From assembly GCF_006376615.1 (NCBI RefSeq), contig NZ_VEXQ01000001.1, positions 310,001 through 374,000 on the forward strand: a DNA stretch of 64,000 nucleotides, written 5' to 3'. The stretch's first letter is position 1. Each line of letters starts with the position of its first letter. A program made the translations under genes and the position numbers. This DNA comes from Buttiauxella sp. B2. Its GTDB lineage: Bacteria > Pseudomonadota > Gammaproteobacteria > Enterobacterales > Enterobacteriaceae. Shown here one piece after another: positions 15,321 to 52,503 of the stretch. Under the pieces are notes generated by a model. It saw nothing but the letters and a program-made list of their open reading frames with translations. It was not told where the DNA came from and did no database searches.

Positions 15321-15463
15321 GGTTGCGTCCGTCGTTGGGGAGTAGCCGATTTTCGCCATTGCGAAAATGTACATGTCAACATACTCGTTCCTTATTCTAT
15401 CAAGAATAAAACGTGGCATGTACGACTCAAGCACTGAGTAGGCGAGACCATAGGCACGTAACC
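15321..15463 (+). ncRNA. Manganese riboswitch (yybP-ykoY type) of mntP
   Basis: The two invariant elements are present: GGGGAGTAGCC (L1 side) and GGCGAGACCATAGG (L3 side). Closing stem P1 pairs 15321-15328 (GGTTGCGT) with 15456-15463 (ACGTAACC) with one wobble. Downstream, AGTTGGG at 15472-15478 pairs with CCCAACT at 15503-15509, right beside the mntP ribosome-binding site (GAGGCG). This could act as the expression platform. This RNA class binds Mn2+ and turns on exporter synthesis. Confidence 0.88.
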
Positions 15464-15520
15464 ATCATTTAAGTTGGGGATGGCGGCGTGTATATGGATA
15501 TTCCCAACTGAGGCGTTTGC

Positions 15521-18712: not shown

Positions 18713-18866
18713 TCCTCATCAGCAACTAAGCAATTGAAAGTTTAAACATAATGAGGAAATTAACCAGACAGGAACAGTGCTACAAGATGCGCTGCTTTGC
18801 TACAAAACATAACTGCAAGCGGTTTACAGAAACATCTGGAAAAATATTTGATAAGATTTCTTTATG

Positions 18867-18896
18867 AAAAAGCCCCGCTACATGAGCAGGGCTTTT
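18867..18896 (-). terminator. Terminator of yobF-cspC
   Basis: On the minus strand a near-perfect GC-rich hairpin (AGCCCTGCT ... AGCGGGGCT) is followed by TTTTT, about 45 bp beyond the cspC stop. Confidence 0.8.
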
Positions 18897-18939
18897 ATCA
18901 GAATTTGGCGTTATTCGCGCCAGGTCTAATTCAAACGAA

Positions 18940-19149
18940 TTAGATAGCAGTTACATTAACTGCTGCAGGGCCTTTCTGGCCGTCCTGGATTTCGAACTCA
19001 ACGTTCTGGCCTTCAGCCAGAGTTTTGAAGCCGTTACCCTGGATTGCAGAGAAGTGTACGAACACATCTTTGCTGCCGTCAGCAGGAGTAATGAAACCAA
19101 AACCTTTAGACTCGTTGAACCACTTAACTTGACCTTTAATCTTTGCCAT
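18940..19149 (-). CDS. cspC: Cold-shock-like RNA-binding protein CspC
   Basis: A 69-residue single cold-shock domain with RNP1 (KGFGFI) and RNP2 (VFVHF). CspC is a constitutive RNA chaperone that promotes stability of rpoS and stress-gene mRNAs in E. coli. It lies 46 bp downstream of yobF and is probably cotranscribed with it, as in E. coli and Salmonella. Confidence 0.96.
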
Positions 19150-19195
19150 TTTGCAAAATTCCTTAGATTGTTTTCTTCGCCCGCAGGCGCAGGCA

Positions 19196-19312
19196 TTACT
19201 TAGCTAAAACAGAGACATTACTGCATGAGGCACTAATATAAGGCTCGGCAGAGAAGCGGTATTCAACGACAACGTGTTTACTCAGGACTTCTTTACTGAA
19301 AATGCCACACAT
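19196..19312 (-). CDS. yobF: Small protein YobF
   Basis: A 38-residue ORF ([14 protein letters not shown] ... CSNVSVLAK) closely matching the E. coli stress-linked small protein YobF. The frame is open further upstream, but the ATG at 19312 follows GAGGTACAG and gives the conserved N-terminus. Function is unknown; it leads the yobF-cspC transcript. Confidence 0.88.
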
Positions 19313-19844
19313 AAACAGAACTGTACCTCGTTTAACCCAAAGTGTTATCACATACAACGCAATCAATGGCAAGCCATTTTTCGGTATGTATCGATCTGTC
19401 GCACAAATTCTGAAACGCATATTGTTCATGAAAATGAAATGCACAAAATGTGCATAAAATTAACACTGAACAAACAGAATTCCATGTATGCAAATGGCGA
19501 CCGCAGACAACATTTTTACCATAGCCTAAAGATATCTTTTCGTCCAGGCGAAGCGCAAAAAAATCGACAAAATAGTCATTATGCTTATGATTTTTTTAGC
19601 ATAGCTATTCAAAAAATGAGCAATGCAGTACAGCCAAAGAAAGAGTTAAATAGATAAATGAAATAGCGAATAATTGCAGAATGAATAAAGCTTGAGCAGT
19701 CAGCTATTTATATTGCACCAAAATAATGAAAGTTTAATGACACGCTGCGCCATAGTGATGCAATAAAAATGTTTCGCTTTATAAGCCGTATAATATAAAT
19801 GCCTTAGGCTATCAATATATCGCTTTAAAAAATTCGGATGTTAT
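19313..19844. other. AT-rich yobF-cspC upstream region
   Basis: No convincing gene in 530 bp; frames of up to about 130 codons here lack ribosome sites and protein-like composition. The region must hold the yobF-cspC promoter. One visible element is a palindrome at 19439-19455 (ATGCACA-AAA-TGTGCAT), possibly an operator. Several tracts of A and T precede the RomA-like gene's 3' end. Confidence 0.5.
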
Positions 19845-43493: not shown

Positions 43494-43865
43494 GTGATCG
43501 ATAACCAGGGTCAGCTCGTCAGCAACGTATTTCCCCACTGGTACGTGCCGGACAAATCACGACCATTCGTCAGCAGCCTGGCGAACCGTTGTGATTTTCT
43601 GATTAGTTCTGGCAGAAGAAAAAACAGCGTTGACGGCAGTGTCAATCTTGATGGGTTAACCAAAGGATTTGTGAAGGCAAGAAATGCTTCTGGAATTGAA
43701 TTTTCTGAACAACCGCCGACCTTCCACGAGATACGGAGTCTGGTCAGTAGATTATATGAAGCGGAACACGGGAAGGAATTTACTCAGAAACTTTTAGGTC
43801 ATACGACTCAAAAAATGACTGAAAAATATTTGGATTCGAGGAAAAAGGAGTTTATGTTGTTATGA
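43494..43865 (+). pseudogene. C-terminal fragment of a lambda-type tyrosine integrase
   Basis: The last 70 or so codons read FVKARNASGIEFSEQPPTFH then EIRSLVSRLYE, KLLGHTTQKMTEKYLDSR and a stop, matching the lambda/HK022 integrase catalytic end: His-x-x-Arg, Leu-Gly-His and the Tyr nucleophile. The N-terminal binding domains and first catalytic Arg region are absent. The frame runs upstream to about 43380 with unrelated-looking residues. The stop is 80 bp from the sdsR-like att sequence and points toward it, the usual int-att arrangement. Confidence 0.7.
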
Positions 43866-43968: not shown

Positions 43969-44194
43969 ATTCTCGTCAAACACCATTAATATCATTTAAA
44001 ATCAATGCGTTAGGAAACAAACTCACCATTCTTTTCTCTTGAAAGCATGTTAATTCATTTCAGCATAATCAAATACTTGGCATTTTTACCGTAACCTTTC
44101 GTGGAATTTTCGAGATAACTTCGCACCGATCCAACCCACCTTCTGCTCTAATAACTTTGCGTAATCTATACTTCCATTTTAATTGGAGGTGACC

Positions 44195-44863
44195 ATGTGC
44201 GGACGTTTTTCCCAGTCCCAAACACGTGAAGATTATCTTTCCTACCTTGCAGATGAAGCTGAACGTAACATTCCCTACGACCCCGAGCCTATTGCTCGTT
44301 ATAACGTCGCGCCCGGCACTCGGGTTTTATTACTTTCTGAACGCGACGAAAAGCTGCATGTTGACCCTGTTCACTGGGGTTATGCACCCGCATGGTGGGA
44401 TAAAACCCCGTTAATTAATGCCCGTGTTGAAACAGCAGCTACCAGCAGAATGTTTAAACCGCTGTGGCAACATGGCCGCGCTATCGTTTTTGCTGACGGT
44501 TGGTTTGAATGGAAAAAGGATGGCGAGAAGAAACAGCCCTACTTCATTCACCGCGCCGACGGGAAGCCTATATTCATGGCCGCCATTGGCAGCACACCAT
44601 TCGAACGTGGTGATGATGCAGAAGGGTTTCTGATAGTGACTACGGCTGCGGATAAGGGGCTTATTGATATTCACGACCGTAGGCCATTAGTTTTGTCACC
44701 AGAAGCTGCTCGTACGTGGATGAGACAGGATATTGGTGGGACGATATTGGAGGATCTAGTTGTACAGGGTGCTGTTGCAGCAGATAAGTTTGCCTGGTAT
44801 CAAGTTACACGCGCTGTGGGGAATGTAAGGAAGCAAGGTTCCGACCTTATAAATCCTATATAA
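44195..44863 (+). CDS. yedK: SRAP-domain abasic-site shielding protein (YedK)
   Basis: A 222-residue HMCES/YedK protein, which forms a thiazolidine DNA-protein crosslink with abasic sites in single-stranded DNA. The ATG at 44195 is chosen over the upstream frame because GGAGGTGACC precedes it and Cys must become the N-terminal catalytic residue (MCGRF). Active-site residues match YedK: Cys2, Asn75, Glu105 and His160. Here it lies inside prophage cargo next to the att-like site, unlike the E. coli chromosomal copy. Confidence 0.93.
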   Translation: MCGRFSQSQTREDYLSYLADEAERNIPYDPEPIARYNVAPGTRVLLLSERDEKLHVDPVHWGYAPAWWDKTPLINARVETAATSRMFKPLWQHGRAIVFADGWFEWKKDGEKKQPYFIHRADGKPIFMAAIGSTPFERGDDAEGFLIVTTAADKGLIDIHDRRPLVLSPEAARTWMRQDIGGTILEDLVVQGAVAADKFAWYQVTRAVGNVRKQGSDLINPI

Positions 44864-46090
<1,227 letters not shown>

Positions 46091-46336
46091 TTTCTGAATG
46101 GGGCAGGATTCGACTCAGAGTCACTTTTCTCTCATGACAGGCTTCTCCTGCCAGAAACGGACATTATTACCAATTTTTTGGTGTATTACTTCAATGTTTC
46201 TACGGTTTCTAGATGATTTATTTGATACGATTGAAGACTCAATAAAAATTTGCATTTATAATTCATTACAAATTAATGGGCGCACTAACAGTGCCCACTG
46301 GGAACTCCAGCCATTAATCAAATGATATAGGTCACC

Positions 46337-46861
46337 ATGGATACTTCAGAACACTGTAAAGAAGTTTACGCATACTTTGGCCTTGCCATGTATAGGGCCC
46401 AATGTGTTGAGCAGTCAATAGTACAGTTACTAATTTTCTTTGATTTCTTTAAAGAAAATGTGCCTAAATTCCGCACCAGTGAGGAGTGGGAAAAGGACTT
46501 CGATAAGTTTGATAAGGTGTTATCAAAAAAAACAATGGGGAGTCTTTTAGGTTTAGTAAAAGATCTAGGAATGTTAGACAATGATATTGAAAATATACTT
46601 TCTTTAGCTTTACAAAAACGAAACTGGTTAGCTCATGAGTATTTTGTTGATCATGCTTTAGACTTTATAAATGAAGCTGGTAGAAATAAAATGCTTAAAG
46701 AACTTGAATGTACTATCGAGATATTTAATTTGGTTGAAGATACATTGCAACCTATTTCCAGTTCTGCTGCACTTAAGTATGGGTTAACTGACGAGGCTTT
46801 GGAGGAAATCAAGAGAGAAATGTACAAATCTGTTGAAAGTGATTTTAATGCAAACAACTAG
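46337..46861 (+). CDS. HEPN-like hypothetical protein
   Basis: A 174-residue, mostly helical, AT-rich gene product. KRNWLAHEYF (residues 94-103) has the R-N-x3-H pattern (Arg95, His100) of the RX4-6H motif of HEPN ribonucleases, and the context (amphipathic helices, hydrophobic N-terminal half) fits that four-helix fold. No partner antitoxin is visible beside it. It faces the reverse-transcriptase gene tail to tail. HEPN assignment is inference from the motif. Confidence 0.55.
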   Translation: MDTSEHCKEVYAYFGLAMYRAQCVEQSIVQLLIFFDFFKENVPKFRTSEEWEKDFDKFDKVLSKKTMGSLLGLVKDLGMLDNDIENILSLALQKRNWLAHEYFVDHALDFINEAGRNKMLKELECTIEIFNLVEDTLQPISSSAALKYGLTDEALEEIKREMYKSVESDFNANN

Positions 46862-47042
46862 TCTGTTTTTCATTAACAATGAGAGGTTACACCGGAAAGA
46901 AAAATAGAAATAGTTATTAATATTTATAGCCTGACGACAGGGCCACGCCAACTGCCCTGCCCAAAATTAAATACGCAAACCTAATTTTTTATACATTGGT
47001 TGCAAAACAAATATGCGAAATCCATTAATGTTCTTGAGTACA

Positions 47043-48422
47043 TTAAGAAAAGCCAGAAATGTCCTGCTCAAGTTCTTTGACAGATGTTGAGATCTTGTAA
47101 TTAAACATTCTAGTAACTGATGCATTACTTAGCTTATTAACCTCTTCTTTCCCAATCCATAAAGAGACAATCTCTCTTTGCTGTTCTATTGCTAATGAAT
47201 CAAAATTGGGAATATATCGATGAGAATCTTTATCTCCACGCTGCCATTCATAGTATGTTTTGATCAAAGACTTTGGCCTGATATCCGTCTCTAACCCAAA
47301 GCGTTTAGTTAACTTTCTTATTGTGTGATTAACAGTTCTGAACTGAACGGTGTTTGATACTTGAGAAAAATAAGCCACCCAGCCCATACGTTTCCCATTA
47401 AAAATACAACCTGTAATACGCAAGTTTATCTTCCATTGACAGTACGCTATTGCTCGTTGCTTATCTCTCTTATTATTAGCTTTAGATAAAGCATGTCGAT
47501 AGGCAGTAAATATTTTTGCAAGTGAGGATTCAAATCGAAGTATGCTATCCTTCTTTATTCCAATTCCTTCATTATTTACTTCATAACCTAAGAAGTTAAA
47601 GCTTTCACTCAATAACCCTACTTTTGATTTTGATTTTGATTCAACGCTATCTATTGGATGAGGAGAAAGGCCAATACTTTCCAGTTTTTTCACAATAATG
47701 TTGGCCATTTCAACTGCTCGGCCAGTCGGAGTTAATATGAGTATGTCATCAACATATCTTTTATACCAGATATCAGTAACAAGGTTAATTTCAGTATCGA
47801 CATTTTGCAATGCAATTTCTGCCAATACATTAGAAATGGACAATCCCTGCGGTACACCAATGCTATTTTTAATTACGCCCTTGCTCCCTTTCGTCTCGCT
47901 TACTGTAGGGGTAGAGATAGCATTGTAAATTAATCCTCTGAACTCGGCTTTTCTGATTTTATTTTTTATGGAATCTTTAATTAATGCATGCGGAATTGAG
48001 GGGTAGAAGTTCTTAAGATCAATTTTGGCATACTCAGAGTACAGGCCAGAACTTATAGACTCTTTAAGTGACTCAATCACAACCTGAGGTAGCGAAAGCT
48101 TTGCACTCGGGAATACATTGATTAGAGCATCACATAGTGCTCGAAGAGTAATTCTATCCCGCACCGTCGGAATCGAAATCTGTCGAGGGTTTGAATGAGC
48201 GCCTTTAGAAATCAATTTTTCTTTGTAAGCAGTGAACTTATAGTTACCATCAACTACCTTTCTCACTATCAGGGCTATTTCATCCGCGCTGTTTTTTTCG
48301 AAACCACTTGGTCGTACACGATCTATACCAATTGCACCTGAGTCTTTAATCTTATCAAAAAATATTTCCTTAAGGTGTTTAGAAGTAAAATATCGTTTAA
48401 AACTACGCGCTGCACTACTCAT
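47043..48422 (-). CDS. Reverse transcriptase (UG/DRT- or retron-like)
   Basis: A 459-residue RNA-directed DNA polymerase. Palm motifs are intact: IDLKNFYPSI (134-143), GVPQGLSISN (189-198), catalytic RYVDDILIL (222-230) and FNFLGYEV (275-282). A C-terminal thumb/X-like region includes INLRITGCIFNGKRMGW. There is no maturase HNH domain or other fused enzyme, so it is not a group II intron RT. The ATG at 48422 overlaps the SLATT stop by 8 bp; an earlier in-frame ATG at 48461 lies inside the SLATT gene. Membership in a named defence-RT class could not be fixed. Confidence 0.88.
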   Translation of the reverse strand: MSSAARSFKRYFTSKHLKEIFFDKIKDSGAIGIDRVRPSGFEKNSADEIALIVRKVVDGNYKFTAYKEKLISKGAHSNPRQISIPTVRDRITLRALCDALINVFPSAKLSLPQVVIESLKESISSGLYSEYAKIDLKNFYPSIPHALIKDSIKNKIRKAEFRGLIYNAISTPTVSETKGSKGVIKNSIGVPQGLSISNVLAEIALQNVDTEINLVTDIWYKRYVDDILILTPTGRAVEMANIIVKKLESIGLSPHPIDSVESKSKSKVGLLSESFNFLGYEVNNEGIGIKKDSILRFESSLAKIFTAYRHALSKANNKRDKQRAIAYCQWKINLRITGCIFNGKRMGWVAYFSQVSNTVQFRTVNHTIRKLTKRFGLETDIRPKSLIKTYYEWQRGDKDSHRYIPNFDSLAIEQQREIVSLWIGKEEVNKLSNASVTRMFNYKISTSVKELEQDISGFS

Positions 48423-48954
48423 AGAGGAACAATCCAACGATAAAAGGGGCCAGATATGCAAATGCTAACATTATATATTTAACAAAAAAGGCAGCATAAA
48501 CATGTATATATTCTGTCCACTTAGGAGATCGAGATATTAACAGTGAAGAATTTTTCACGCGGAAAATTTTGTCATCCATGTCATTATGATTATCTACTTC
48601 ATTTAAAAGTTCGTCATATTTTGTAATATCGGTATCCATTACCGATCCCCTAGAATTTATTACATTATAAAGATGCTGCAATGCCAAGTAATTATTACGC
48701 ATATTCATTGCGCGACCACGGAAATTTCTGTTTGTAACAGATAATGACACACCGAGTAATGCAATTGACAAAATTGCGCTAAAAATATCAGTATCGCTAC
48801 CCAATAAATTTGGGTAACGAATTACAACCACAGCCAAAGCAACCCCTAAAACAGCGTACCAAACGAGAAGAAATTGGGAGTGTGTATCCATCCACTCTAA
48901 TCGATGATATGCATGAATTCGCGCCTTATAGGTGAACCATATTTTGTCCTTCAT
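48415..48954 (-). CDS. SLATT-type membrane effector protein
   Basis: A 179-residue protein resembling SLATT family 5: an N-terminal basic/aromatic helix (TYKARIHAYHRLEWMD), two close TM helices (27-46 and 57-73), a soluble helical region with NNYLALQHLYNV, and a third hydrophobic segment (157-177). SLATT proteins are predicted pore-forming effectors of nucleotide- or nucleic-acid-sensing immune systems, and family 5 has been linked to reverse transcriptases. Start chosen at 48954: GGAG sits 6 bases before this ATG but abuts the earlier one at 48960. Translationally coupled to the RT. Confidence 0.8.
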   Translation of the reverse strand: MKDKIWFTYKARIHAYHRLEWMDTHSQFLLVWYAVLGVALAVVVIRYPNLLGSDTDIFSAILSIALLGVSLSVTNRNFRGRAMNMRNNYLALQHLYNVINSRGSVMDTDITKYDELLNEVDNHNDMDDKIFRVKNSSLLISRSPKWTEYIHVYAAFFVKYIMLAFAYLAPFIVGLFLYE

Positions 48955-48977
48955 GAACATCTCCGTATGAAAAGAGA

Positions 48978-49109
48978 GAAGAGAGACAGGGAAAATTGGA
49001 AACTATTGAACATCCCGAAGGGATCAGTGAGCCGAAGCTCAACAGCTTACGCTGTTCTTTATCAGAGCCGCCCTTACCATAAGTAAGAGGAAGAACCTGC
49101 CTCTCTTCC
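48978..49109 (-). ncRNA. Structured leader RNA of the SLATT-RT operon
   Basis: Read on the minus strand, 5' arm GAAGAGAGGCAGG (49108-49096) pairs with 3' arm CCTGTCTCTCTTC (48990-48978) over 13 bp with one G-U. Inside are four hairpins: CTTAC-TTATG-GTAAG (49087-49073), AACAGC-GTAA-GCTGTT (49056-49041), TGAGC-TTCG-GCTCA (49041-49028) and ATCCC-TTC-GGGAT (49024-49012). GUAA and C(UUCG)G are stable RNA tetraloops only on this strand. On the plus strand the long stem has an A-C mismatch. It could be the RT template/primer RNA, as in retrons and DRT systems. Confidence 0.7.
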
Positions 49110-49113
49110 GTCA

Positions 49114-49143
49114 TTTATAACACTGATGAATAGTATTAATCAA
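49114..49143 (-). promoter_or_regulatory. Promoter for the leader RNA-SLATT-RT operon
   Basis: On the minus strand TTGATT (49143-49138) and TATAAA (49119-49114) are separated by 18 bp. The predicted start falls about 5-7 bases on, at 49107-49109, where the long stem begins. The AT-rich stretch 49144-49291 shows no gene. Confidence 0.65.
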
Positions 49144-49291
49144 CATAATATCAAAGCTTTAATCTATTATTTATTAATTTAGTTGGGATAGTTTAATGGG
49201 ATCTTTTTTGTAGCATTACTAATAAACTGCAAGGTAGATTTAACGTCTGCTTCTCGCTCTTAGCTGACTTTCAGTTCTAAGTTAATGCAAG

Positions 49292-50560
49292 CTAACGAAC
49301 TACCAGCAAATCCGCATAGCGTGTTGTGTATCGCGGCGACAACATTTTTCTTTTCATCTGCCACGGTTGCTGTATGCCCTGCCCCGCAAAGTACAGCGTG
49401 CAACGACCCTCTTTACGGTTGAGCTGATCCAGTACCTTCATGAGTGGCTCGCTGTTCTTTCGCGGGGCGTTGTCATCAAACAGATTCAACTGAGCAATCC
49501 CCTGACTGAAGAAATCACCGAGCATGATGCCCGCCTTCTGGTAACGGTGGCCATCCTTCCAGATAGCATCGAGGCAGCGCGTCGCGGCGGCAATAATATC
49601 CCGGCTGTCCTGCGTGGGTGTCAGCAACGTTACAGCCACCTGATTACCATAATAGGGCTCGTTAAGTGCAAAGGGGCTCGTCTTAACGAATGCTGAGATG
49701 TGCCGACAGAACTGGTGTTCACTCCGGAGTTTCTCAGCTGCACGCGAGGCATAACTGCAAATCGCCTGGCGCATCTGTTCATACTCCGTGATCCGTTCAC
49801 CAAAGGAACGGGAACAGACTATTTCCTGTTTTGTAGGCGCAAATTCTTCAAGCCCCAGGCAAGGCTCGCCGCGCAGCTCGCGCACGGTACGTTCGAGCAC
49901 GACATTGAAGTGTTTACGGATAAAACGGACATCAGTATCCGCCAGCTGGAGCACGGTTTTAATCCCCATCGCCTCGAGCTTCTTCGTTATTCGCCGCCCC
50001 ACTCCCCAGACTTCATCAACCGGCAACGCTGCCATCAGTTTGCGTTGCTTATCAATATTCGACAAATCAACGACCCCACCAGACTCGGTTTGCCATATCT
50101 TTGCTGCGTGGTTCGCGAGCTTGGCCAGCGTTTTGGTTTGCGCAATGCCTACACCTACAGTCAGGTGGGTTCGCTTCAATACGGTTGCGCGTATCTCCTT
50201 GCCAAATTCCCGCAGGTTCCGGCAATTACGCACGCCCGTCAGGTCGCAGAAGGCTTCATCAATTGAGTATATTTCGCAGCGCGGGGACATTTCCTCCAGC
50301 GTGGTCATCACCCTGTCGGACATGTCAGCATACAGTTCATAATTACTGCTGAAGCAGACAACACCATACCGGCGGAACAAATCCTTTTGTTTGAAGAAAG
50401 GCTCCCCCATTTTGATATCCAGTTTTTTGGCTTCAGCACTGCGCGCGATAACGCAGCCGTCATTATTCGAGAGGACAACAACAGGACGGCCTTTCAGGTC
50501 AGGCCTGAATGCCGTCTCGCAGCTGGCATAGAAAGAGTTAACATCGCAGAGGGCAAACAT
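49292..50560 (-). CDS. umuC: DNA polymerase V catalytic subunit UmuC
   Basis: A 422-residue Y-family translesion polymerase. N-terminal FALCDVNSFYASCE, YSIDEAFCDL (catalytic acidic pair) and a helix-hairpin-helix region (VWGVGRRITKKLEAMGI) are intact. The C-terminal region includes a QLNLFDDN clamp-binding-like motif. It starts 2 bp after the umuD stop. A complete polymerase V on a prophage gives damage-induced mutagenesis to the lysogen. Confidence 0.95.
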   Translation of the reverse strand: MFALCDVNSFYASCETAFRPDLKGRPVVVLSNNDGCVIARSAEAKKLDIKMGEPFFKQKDLFRRYGVVCFSSNYELYADMSDRVMTTLEEMSPRCEIYSIDEAFCDLTGVRNCRNLREFGKEIRATVLKRTHLTVGVGIAQTKTLAKLANHAAKIWQTESGGVVDLSNIDKQRKLMAALPVDEVWGVGRRITKKLEAMGIKTVLQLADTDVRFIRKHFNVVLERTVRELRGEPCLGLEEFAPTKQEIVCSRSFGERITEYEQMRQAICSYASRAAEKLRSEHQFCRHISAFVKTSPFALNEPYYGNQVAVTLLTPTQDSRDIIAAATRCLDAIWKDGHRYQKAGIMLGDFFSQGIAQLNLFDDNAPRKNSEPLMKVLDQLNRKEGRCTLYFAGQGIQQPWQMKRKMLSPRYTTRYADLLVVR

Positions 50561-50562
50561 AT

Positions 50563-50982
50563 TCAGCGCGCGGATTTAACGATGAACGTGACCACGCCGA
50601 ATATCTCCAGCTCTTCTTCACTACCAATAATGATAGGGCTGTAGGCGCTGTTTTGAGGATTAAGCTGAACGGTCGGGCGCAGCTGTAATGTTTTGGCCGT
50701 AAACTCTCCGCCCACTGCCGCAATAACGATATCGCCATGCTCGGCGGTGCGGGAACTGTCGACCACCAGCAAATCCCCGTCGCTGATCCCACCATCTGTC
50801 ATTGAGTCACCTGCCGCTTTGACGAAATAGGTCGCGCTCGGGTGTTGGACCATCAGCTCATTGAGATCGATACGTTGCTCTACGTAATCCTGAGCCGGTG
50901 ACGGAAAACCGCACTGTACCAAATCACTGAATAATGGAAGCATTGCTACTGGGCGCAATTCAGCAGGTTTATAAATTTGCAT
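50563..50982 (-). CDS. umuD: DNA polymerase V accessory protein UmuD
   Basis: A 139-residue LexA-like self-cleaving protein. The cleavage site Cys24-Gly25 (VQCGFPSPA), Ser60 in AAGDSM and Lys97 in TAKTLQ match E. coli UmuD numbering exactly. RecA-stimulated cleavage gives UmuD', which joins UmuC. It is the first gene of umuDC, under a LexA box. Confidence 0.96.
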
Positions 50983-51005
50983 AATAAGTAACCACTGGAC
51001 GATAA

Positions 51006-51021
51006 CTGTATTTATATACAG
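51006..51021. promoter_or_regulatory. LexA (SOS) box upstream of umuDC
   Basis: CTGTATTTATATACAG fits the CTGT-N8-ACAG consensus with an AT-rich core, 23 bp upstream of the umuD ATG. Confidence 0.92.
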
Positions 51022-51346
51022 TATTAATATCCTATCCCCAAATCAAGCTCGATCCCGGTGTAAACTCAGTCAAGATGGGGGTTACAGCACAAACTTGATT
51101 ACCAATGAAGGGCTTACGGGCTTGTAAATATTTCATCCATGCCTGGCAACTTACATCAGTGTTCACCCCACTCTGAAAAGCCAAGTGCAAAGGACTCGTG
51201 AGTGAAAAGACCTGCAGAACTGAGTAACACGACTTACAAGGCTACGGTAAGGATCCATGTCAGCTATGAGCGAGGAGCTGACGTCATATGTAATTTATAG
51301 GAGCGGTTATAGGCTGACCTGAGCAGTGGGAAACGGATACAGCAGC

Positions 51347-51380
51347 ACCTGATGTCCCAGATGAATCTGGGACATCAGGT
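51347..51380. repeat. Perfect 34-bp palindrome
   Basis: Arms ACCTGATGTCCCAGAT and ATCTGGGACATCAGGT (16 bp each) are exact complements with a GA loop. A short A run follows on the right, so as a terminator it could only be very weak on the minus strand. The rest of 50983-51463 has no supported gene; a smaller repeat (GTCAGCT ... AGCTGAC) lies at 51259-51282. Confidence 0.8.
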
Positions 51381-51463
51381 ATGTAAAAAAGAGATGGGGA
51401 TCTAGGGGGGCCGTAGGTTTAAATCAGATGAAAACCTGCATGAGGCGCGAATAAACCAAAGGG

Positions 51464-52279
51464 TTAGTCAGAAAAAAGCCGAGCATAATTAATAACCCTC
51501 GACATAGTCATCTGCTGACCATTATCTCCATTTGCTTTTGGAGCCTGATCATCTGGTTTCTTCTGCGGCTGTCCCGCTTTAGAGAGCGAGGCTGCCGGAT
51601 TGAGCTGGGCATTCTGTCTCATATTCATTATCTCTAAGTACCTGTTATGGATTATCTTTAATGTTTCTTGTAAATTTAAGCAGTATCGATTCTTAGCAAA
51701 ATCATTAACCAAGGGAATGTTATTGAATTCCATTCCGTTGCGACCCCAAGTTGCTCTATACACTTTTCCGCCAGATAACGGATCTCGCCTGTATGCATAT
51801 TGTATAGCACTTGAGACTTTACACCTAACCGATGACGCTGAAAACCCTTTATAACGTCTCTTTTTCCTGAGTTTTTTTTCAGTATAGTAGATGCATTCAG
51901 CAGCAAACATCCCTCCAGACGAACCTAAATCATAGGCGACCGACTTACGTCTGACCTGAACCATGGGGGGCGTGTACATACCTAGCATGATACTACCTGT
52001 ACTTTTCTCAAGGACGACCGTACCGAAGAAAAAATCATCCACATCCATATACAAACTCATCAGGCTGGCGTATTGATCGCCAGTTATCACTTTCAGCTGA
52101 AGCGCTTGCATAAGTGCTATCATGGGATGATCTCCACACATAAAAGAGACAGCCTCGTGCCCCTTGAAGTTGATGTGGATTGCCTTCTTTTCAAGAACAT
52201 CCCTTCGCTGACGCCCATCAGAAGACCATTTCCCATCACATGCGGCAAATTCGTATTCACGGTATATCGTTGTTGTCAT
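51464..52279 (-). CDS. Hypothetical prophage protein, 271 residues
   Basis: A full-length ORF with protein-like composition, not recognised. The N-terminal half (about 1-110) is mixed alpha/beta with a small-residue-rich opening (YREYEFAACDGKWSSDG) and MCGDHPMIALMQAL; the middle is very basic (EKKLRKKRRYKGF) and the C-terminus (about 215-260) is a Pro/Gln/Lys/Ala-rich disordered tail. No signal peptide or TM. Its place between umuDC and the tail-fibre gene is typical of late moron genes, whose products are often unrelated to virion structure. Confidence 0.6.
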   Translation of the reverse strand: MTTTIYREYEFAACDGKWSSDGRQRRDVLEKKAIHINFKGHEAVSFMCGDHPMIALMQALQLKVITGDQYASLMSLYMDVDDFFFGTVVLEKSTGSIMLGMYTPPMVQVRRKSVAYDLGSSGGMFAAECIYYTEKKLRKKRRYKGFSASSVRCKVSSAIQYAYRRDPLSGGKVYRATWGRNGMEFNNIPLVNDFAKNRYCLNLQETLKIIHNRYLEIMNMRQNAQLNPAASLSKAGQPQKKPDDQAPKANGDNGQQMTMSRVINYARLFSD

Positions 52280-52503
52280 AAGAAAAGCTGGATTATTTGA
52301 AATCGCTGGAAATATAACACAGTTAATGTACCTTCAGCCAATGAGACCTAGAATAAAACGCACTGAGGAATCTATCAATGCTCGCACCAGCATAAGTGAG
52401 TTCGTCGGACGTCTACGCTACTACGTTGGCTAATACACCTAGGGGCTAAACTTCCACTTCTGGTACACAAGCAACATTCAGGTTTCAATCCAGCCCCCTC
52501 ACA

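Follow-up and report, generated by a model that had tools for sequence, protein, structure and literature searches.

A probable DRT10 system of the Eco3 type, with a putative template RNA, in a prophage of Buttiauxella sp. B2

The locus described here lies within a stretch of 64,000 nucleotides from Buttiauxella sp. B2 (contig NZ_VEXQ01000001.1, positions 310,001 to 374,000; hereafter the window, in whose positions all coordinates are given), flanked by a phage integrase fragment (43494-43865) on one side and by genes for tail fibres and the baseplate on the other. Read along the minus strand, it comprises a promoter-like pair of hexamers (49114-49143), a DRT10-type ncRNA of about 134 nt (48976-49109, both ends placed by reference to Eco3-type RNA), a gene for a SLATT protein (48415-48954) and a gene for a reverse transcriptase (RT; 47043-48422), the ORF of which overlaps the SLATT stop. 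SRAP, PD-T4-3 and umuDC-like genes are found nearby, and from these surroundings the DRT10 locus looks like prophage cargo. The integrase fragment (plus strand) is C-terminal and is probably the prophage edge. The PD-T4-3 gene (45284-46090, plus strand) encodes an anti-phage protein with a GIY-YIG domain (PADLOC 1.3e-135; Pfam LEM-3_GIY-YIG) and is a second defence gene at the same end of the prophage. Between it and the RT gene lies a gene for an unknown protein (46337-46861, plus strand; phrog_12893, 1e-12), possibly a third defence gene, which is matched by neither Pfam nor PADLOC at E ≤ 0.001 and contains a segment, RNWLAH, that resembles what we take to be the HEPN R-x4-H motif. An identical RT and RNA occur on a 57-kb viral contig in IMG/VR. 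Among the genomes listed in a search with the RT, five others are of the same genus, and none of these has the RT at E ≤ 1e-30; in its own genome, the only RT found at E ≤ 0.001 was the query itself. Among phage records, 19 have an RT match, none of them covering 80% of the RT, and there is no DNA match to 44000-52400. At the megablast level, E. coli has no match for the locus, nor for another window gene.

The RT is 459 aa long when read from the ATG at 48422, carries a YVDD motif and ends in a serine, S459. Its best PADLOC profile is RT_UG17 (519.1 bits, 2.1e-156), with the next family, Drt3a, at 116.2 bits. All 35 RT readings with an identity of 55% or more contain YVDD, and 32 of them terminate in serine, the exceptions being a cut copy of the window RT (L112) and two readings that end out of line (L029 and L062). 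A profile of 11 UG17 RTs searched against solved structures matches group II intron RTs, Drt3a and Drt2, as well as TERT chains at E 6.9e-7, with group II intron and other bacterial RTs outscoring telomerase. The SLATT protein matches Pfam SLATT_5 (7.9e-28) and PADLOC RTasSLATT (5.4e-56) and has no match among solved structures up to E = 1; its start is more likely the ATG at 48954 than position 48960, which abuts a GGAG. SLATT_5 proteins were reported near 82% of UG17 RTs in a 2021 survey (PMC8934634).

Upstream of the SLATT gene, the minus strand reads TTGATT (49143-49138) and TATAAA (49119-49114) with an 18-nt spacer, a pair absent from the output of a strict promoter scan. For 20 of 25 RNAs (that of the window counted among them), a hexamer matching TATAAT at 5 or more of its 6 positions is found just 5' of the RNA, as compared with 36% of shuffled windows, relatedness being uncontrolled in this comparison. 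The RNA would begin at about 49107-49109, matching the GG that opens the 137-nt span of Eco3-type RNA. The two arms of the terminal stem, SL1 (GAAGAGAGGCAGG, 49096-49108, and CCTGTCTCTCTTC, 48978-48990), pair at 13 of 13 positions with one G-U and with 105 nt between them, and enclose four hairpins, viz., SL2 (49071-49089), SL3 with a GUAA loop (49042-49055), SL4 with a C(UUCG)G loop (49028-49041) and SL5 (49012-49024), the last a 5-bp stem with a UUC triloop in the computed fold. A preliminary description made from the letters of the window had proposed the promoter-like pair with the same start, the 13-base arms and the four hairpins with their two tetraloops, and a letter-by-letter check finds each of them in place.

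By itself, the single-sequence evidence for a structured RNA is suggestive only. When the 251-nt region was shuffled 1000 times with its dinucleotides preserved, 25 of the shuffles contained a helix of 13 bp or more closing a loop of 80-130 nt, so that the 13-bp stem alone is weak evidence. Folding energy cannot pick the strand, since the plus strand (z = -4.14) does as well as the minus strand (z = -3.86). At the gathering score, Rfam has no family in the RNA region, and at E ≤ 1 it yields only a weak BsrC match on the plus strand (19.6 bits vs a cut-off of 38). Elsewhere in the window, Rfam recognizes two families, a cspA thermoregulator (18865-19320) and a Mn2+ riboswitch (yybP-ykoY; 15325-15518).

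Comparison with homologues is more informative. With the RT as query, relatives were fetched from plasmids as well as from genome contigs, which gave 10 loci, and viral contigs, which gave 4 and 44. A related locus with its RNA is present in 185 of 5426 E. coli genomes, 32 of them at least 99% identical to the L024 type discussed below, and RT matches at the limits set were obtained in 5 of 392, 2 of 369, 10 of 394 and 3 of 398 genomes of further sets, the own genome or centre included. Relatives with an RT identity of at least 55% have the same RNA upstream of SLATT wherever the contig extends that far. Loci with an identical upstream stretch were collapsed, and those with RT identity below 55% or on cut contigs were left out. 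The resulting alignment (A3) holds 23 of 25 curated RNAs, the window and 22 homologues, aligned by sequence; L018, whose RNA is identical to that of L004, and L028, nearly identical to L016, were omitted. Double-sided changes are seen in 20 of the 35 base pairs, as compared with a mean of 11.0 in shuffled controls, none of 500 being as high, though these controls do not fully remove relatedness. Ten of the 13 pairs of SL1 show such changes, as do four of seven pairs in SL2 (97.5% of cells paired) and two of five each in SL3 (99.1%), SL4 (88.3%) and SL5 (100%). The window fold is kept in 95.2% of cells across the 23 RNAs vs 45-56% when it is slid.

A covariance model (R2) built from the 22 relatives with the window excluded, its structure likewise computed only from them, locates the window RNA on the minus strand with 121.7 bits and an E-value of 1.4e-29. 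This is, together with the 128.9 bits obtained with a model that includes the window (R1), the sole significant covariance-model match in the window; the other match listed is on the plus strand at 46531 (8.0 bits, E 4.7). R1 reports one match genome-wide, with 150 of 1191 first-look candidates scored. R2 matches 42 of 48 loci given to it (duplicates L040-L045 and L065 left out), of which 22 were members of the model and many others duplicates of these; the contigs of the six loci lacking a match stop short, 3-532 nt upstream of the RT. Against 40 sources R1 gives 15 matches, weaker in more distant relatives, in six of which (L069, L067, L034, L035, L030 and L032) the matched positions are no more than about 55 nt upstream of SLATT, and at E ≤ 1 it has no match at several distant SLATT-RT loci, e.g., L019, L031, L033, L070 and L073. 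Pattern matches in viral contigs number 25, 17 of them on contigs already included; R1 matched three of the eight new loci (L090, L099 and L101) and missed five.

Two other readings of the same stretch were rejected. The GGCUC of a conserved junction could pair with the 5' arm of SL4 (49037-49069), giving a possible alternative fold, and RNAalifold proposes this GGCUC/GAGC helix in place of SL4. It has one-sided changes only, as against the two double-sided pairs of SL4, and R2, though built with this alternative, still finds the window RNA. An ORF for a small protein (49114-48926) keeps its frame between two conserved anchors in eight of the 25 RNAs, the window included, and none of the 25 both keeps the frame and is open as far as SLATT; some frame is open across the stretch in five relatives (L004, L007, L018, L058 and L064). 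Covariation among homologues and the minus-strand model match settle fold and strand, and a structured minus-strand RNA tied to the SLATT-RT operon, as the preliminary description had proposed, is confirmed as real by sequence comparison. Among the checks named in that description were compensatory changes and a covariance model of homologous loci, and both bear it out.

The arrangement of these parts is that of DRT10, described as a UG17 RT, a SLATT protein and a ncRNA upstream of SLATT that together act as a telomerase-like synthesiser of tandem-repeat DNA (Tang et al. 2025 preprint, PMC12632851). In that account, the ncRNA of 137 nt has a central stem, four smaller hairpins and an A-B-A' arrangement after SL5; the RT binds the RNA, the A-B-A' loop right after SL5 templates the tandem repeats of the cDNA, the priming residue is a C-terminal serine in Eco3 and probably a tyrosine in Eco1, and all three parts are needed (PMC12632851). 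The window has a UG17 RT adjoined by a SLATT gene, a ncRNA of about this length, by its predicted ends, upstream of SLATT with a terminal stem and four hairpins, an A-B-A' candidate directly 3' of a stable hairpin, weak evidence alone and placed as in Eco3-type RNA, and a YVDD motif with a candidate C-terminal priming residue. A link to the published system is given by three E. coli loci (L024-L026) that share one upstream stretch and contain CAATGATTCCAAT, which is the published Eco3DRT10 template letter for letter. Numbering L024 with A from 107 reproduces U110, C116, A117 and U119, as well as a 137-nt span bounded by the terminal stem. The three loci encode 456-aa RTs that end in serine, in agreement with the published S456, and S459 of the window RT aligns with this residue; since the RT is 459 aa from the ATG at 48422, S459 is the predicted priming residue. 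The window RT is about 63% identical to these RTs, and the prophage neighbours differ. Common to Eco3 and the window are the UG17 RT, SLATT_5, the ncRNA upstream of SLATT, the terminal stem with four hairpins, a template that directly follows SL5, CAAU in both the A and the A' position, and the C-terminal serine; they differ in the unit, which is 9 nt in Eco3 (CAAUGAUUC) and 10 nt in the window (CAAUAGUUUC). The preliminary description had drawn a parallel with retrons, as the long terminal stem and hairpins adjoining an RT would suggest. A retron msr-msd with an a1/a2 stem is nevertheless scarcely credible here: the window RT is of another family, with RT_II-A, which we take to be a retron type, at 43.5 bits against 519 for UG17 (among the best 25 of 68 matching families), layout and template agree with DRT10, and a msr-msd product is not expected.

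Other systems share some of these traits. DRT9 (UG28) likewise combines a Class 2 UG RT with an upstream ncRNA, sometimes SLATT, and a protein-primed repetitive cDNA, but its template is poly-U and its product poly-dA (PMC12483538). The same paper could not bring DRT9 into a K-12 strain without sbcB and reports this gene as essential where UG17 is present (PMC12483538). The Drt9 profile scores only 58.5 bits on the window RT vs 519.1 for UG17, and the window loop, CAAUAGUUUCCAAUUUUCC, has short U runs only. DRT3a, the second-best profile, also makes ncRNA-templated tandem-repeat DNA, but with a partner RT, DRT3b, and in dinucleotide repeats (PMC13174585). Telomerase, with which DRT10 is compared in PMC12632851, has a template with an alignment segment, a boundary hairpin and repeat addition, whereas the window system involves no chromosome end. 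Among the matches listed, the literature search gave no DRT10 study besides PMC12632851 and a DRT3 preprint citing it. The window system is of a kind already described, as a further, naturally diverged, prophage-borne homologue.

Based on position, the RNA is very probably the template RNA of this system. After SL5 and a GUU, in the place occupied by the Eco3 template CAATGATTC, it reads CAAU-AGUUUC-CAAU (49008-48995), an A-B-A' pattern that the preliminary description did not name. The predicted template A-B (CAAU-AGUUUC) spans 48999-49008 and the predicted re-annealing segment A', a CAAU identical to A, spans 48995-48998, with SL5 as the template boundary by homology (PMC12632851). We therefore infer a cDNA of (GAAACTATTG)n with a period of 10; the corresponding Eco3 cDNA is GAATCATTG (PMC12632851). 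The longest repeat in the window loop alone is UUUCC with a period of 8, rather than CAAU with a period of 10, and neither this repeat (P = 0.09) nor the CAAU repeat is significant within the loop by itself. The longer repeat would favour another register, UUUCC-AAU-UUUCC, and an 8-nt product, ATTGGAAA. This register would start 6 nt farther from SL5 than that of Eco3 and its A' would enter the terminal stem, while in 17 of 18 distinct loops the segment after SL5 and GU has a downstream copy of at least 3 nt (the preceding base counted in some; L005 has only 2), and we consider it improbable. For the 10-nt register, matching of A to A' within the own RNA is 69, as compared with 58.4 when re-paired (P = 0.008; permutation over 18 distinct loops from 31 RNAs, relatedness uncontrolled). 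The signal is modest, most loops sharing CAA regardless, and stems mainly from the fourth base, since CAA is nearly fixed in both copies.

Template units in relatives range from 9 to 11 nt. Of the fetched loci that are not identical to the window, the nearest, L013 (RT 73% identical), has a 9-nt unit, GATACTTTG. In E. coli, L016 and L024 are 98.3% identical in SLATT and 98.5% in RT, and their templates (CAACGGTTC vs CAATGATTC) differ at two of nine bases. Fast evolution of the template under diversifying selection finds no support in the clade; the 5 scorable columns of B average 0.82 bits of entropy, more than unpaired columns overall (0.70) but less than the hairpin loops (1.20-1.62). The role of the RNA as a template, one of two roles offered in the preliminary description, is thus probable from the Eco3 position. 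The other, that of a primer, is not borne out because published DRT10 priming uses the C-terminal residue of the RT (PMC12632851). The template position together with YVDD and the C-terminal serine leads us to take the RNA as template and the RT as its own primer, in a system that is not a retron. What endures of the earlier interpretation is therefore the RNA, its strand, its tie to the operon, its DRT kind and its probable template role; what has to be given up is the retron parallel, the primer role and the view that no family fits, given that the DRT10/UG17 ncRNA (PMC12632851) fits even though no Rfam family covers it.

We hold it highly probable that the locus is an anti-phage DRT10 system of Eco3 type, complete and probably functional, its mechanism being partly drawn from relatives. 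The RNA would be transcribed from about 49109 and fold into the terminal stem and four inner hairpins, and the UG17 RT would bind it, prime from its own C-terminal S459 and copy the loop just 3' of SL5, with CAAUAGUUUC (A-B) as template, up to the SL5 boundary. The end of the cDNA would then slip back and re-pair with A', and cycle after cycle would extend an RT-attached single strand of (GAAACTATTG)n. The SLATT protein, presumed to be a membrane effector, would likely sense the repeat DNA or its loss. The fold seen in covariation, the operon, the RT family, the template position and the catalytic and candidate priming residues belong to the window itself. RNA binding, protein priming, repeat addition and the requirement for three parts are carried over from the published relatives, and by the same analogy the window copy is predicted to be expressed and active, its RT to bind the RNA and to make protein-linked tandem-repeat cDNA, and the system to give phage defence.

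Prophage cargo often decays, and two related RTs, those of L029 and L062, end out of line, so a decayed and silent copy deserves consideration. It seems unlikely: both window genes have open reading frames, the RT has YVDD and S459, all helices can form, A equals A', and the identical RT and RNA recur in IMG/VR, though possibly from the same strain. Since the RNA shares the strand of SLATT and lies immediately 5' of it, it could also be, instead of an independent partner RNA, a cis-acting leader that controls the SLATT-RT mRNA as an attenuator or riboregulator. A terminator scan over 2.6 kb lists one terminator-like hairpin, at 49109-49089 inside the 5' end of the RNA, where 1.4 are expected from shuffles, and none at its 3' end. 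The former would favour a leader and the latter speaks against it, as do RIP-seq of three relatives, in which the RT-bound RNA comes from the corresponding place, and Eco3, in which deleting the RNA or scrambling its hairpins abolishes or severely lowers defence (PMC12632851); a leader is accordingly very improbable.

Directly upstream of the system, and outside it, lies a umuDC-like operon (49292-50982, minus strand; IMS/IMS_C/DUF4113 and Peptidase_S24) that runs toward the RNA, which starts 182 nt past the end of umuC on the same strand. An exact LexA-like box, CTGTATTTATATACAG, precedes umuD at 51006-51021; exact matches to what we take to be the LexA-box motif number two in the window, this one included. 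It is conceivable, if speculative, that this operon might feed transcription of the RNA. In E. coli, Eco3-type loci follow a DinI-like gene at a distance of about 70 nt, and this gene has one or two LexA-like boxes; in L016, two such boxes (2621-2664) stand before the DinI-like gene directly upstream of the Eco3-type DRT10. Over 59 loci there are 12 LexA-like boxes in 108,451 bases upstream vs 3 in 114,716 downstream, and exact boxes occur upstream of seven of the 59, six of these belonging to the E. coli lineage; the window locus as sampled (L001) is too short to reach its own box. SOS control of some DRT10 systems in prophages is nonetheless doubtful, given that the RNA has its own promoter-like site and that the terminator-like hairpin sits at its very start. 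As a general DRT10 trait SOS linkage was rejected, and we treat it as a lead rather than a finding because most other relatives do not have such boxes. The main text of PMC12632851 makes no mention of SOS, LexA, DinI, umuC or prophage, and a literature search on defence RTs together with the SOS response and LexA found only the DRT3 preprint. If there were such control, DNA damage or prophage induction would raise the template RNA, SLATT and the RT together by read-through.

As a prophage-borne homologue of DRT10, the system yields an exact and cheap prediction, (GAAACTATTG)n. Furthermore, pairs such as the window and L013, or L016 and L024, could help separate what SLATT senses, i.e., the repeat sequence, its length or the amount of single-stranded DNA.
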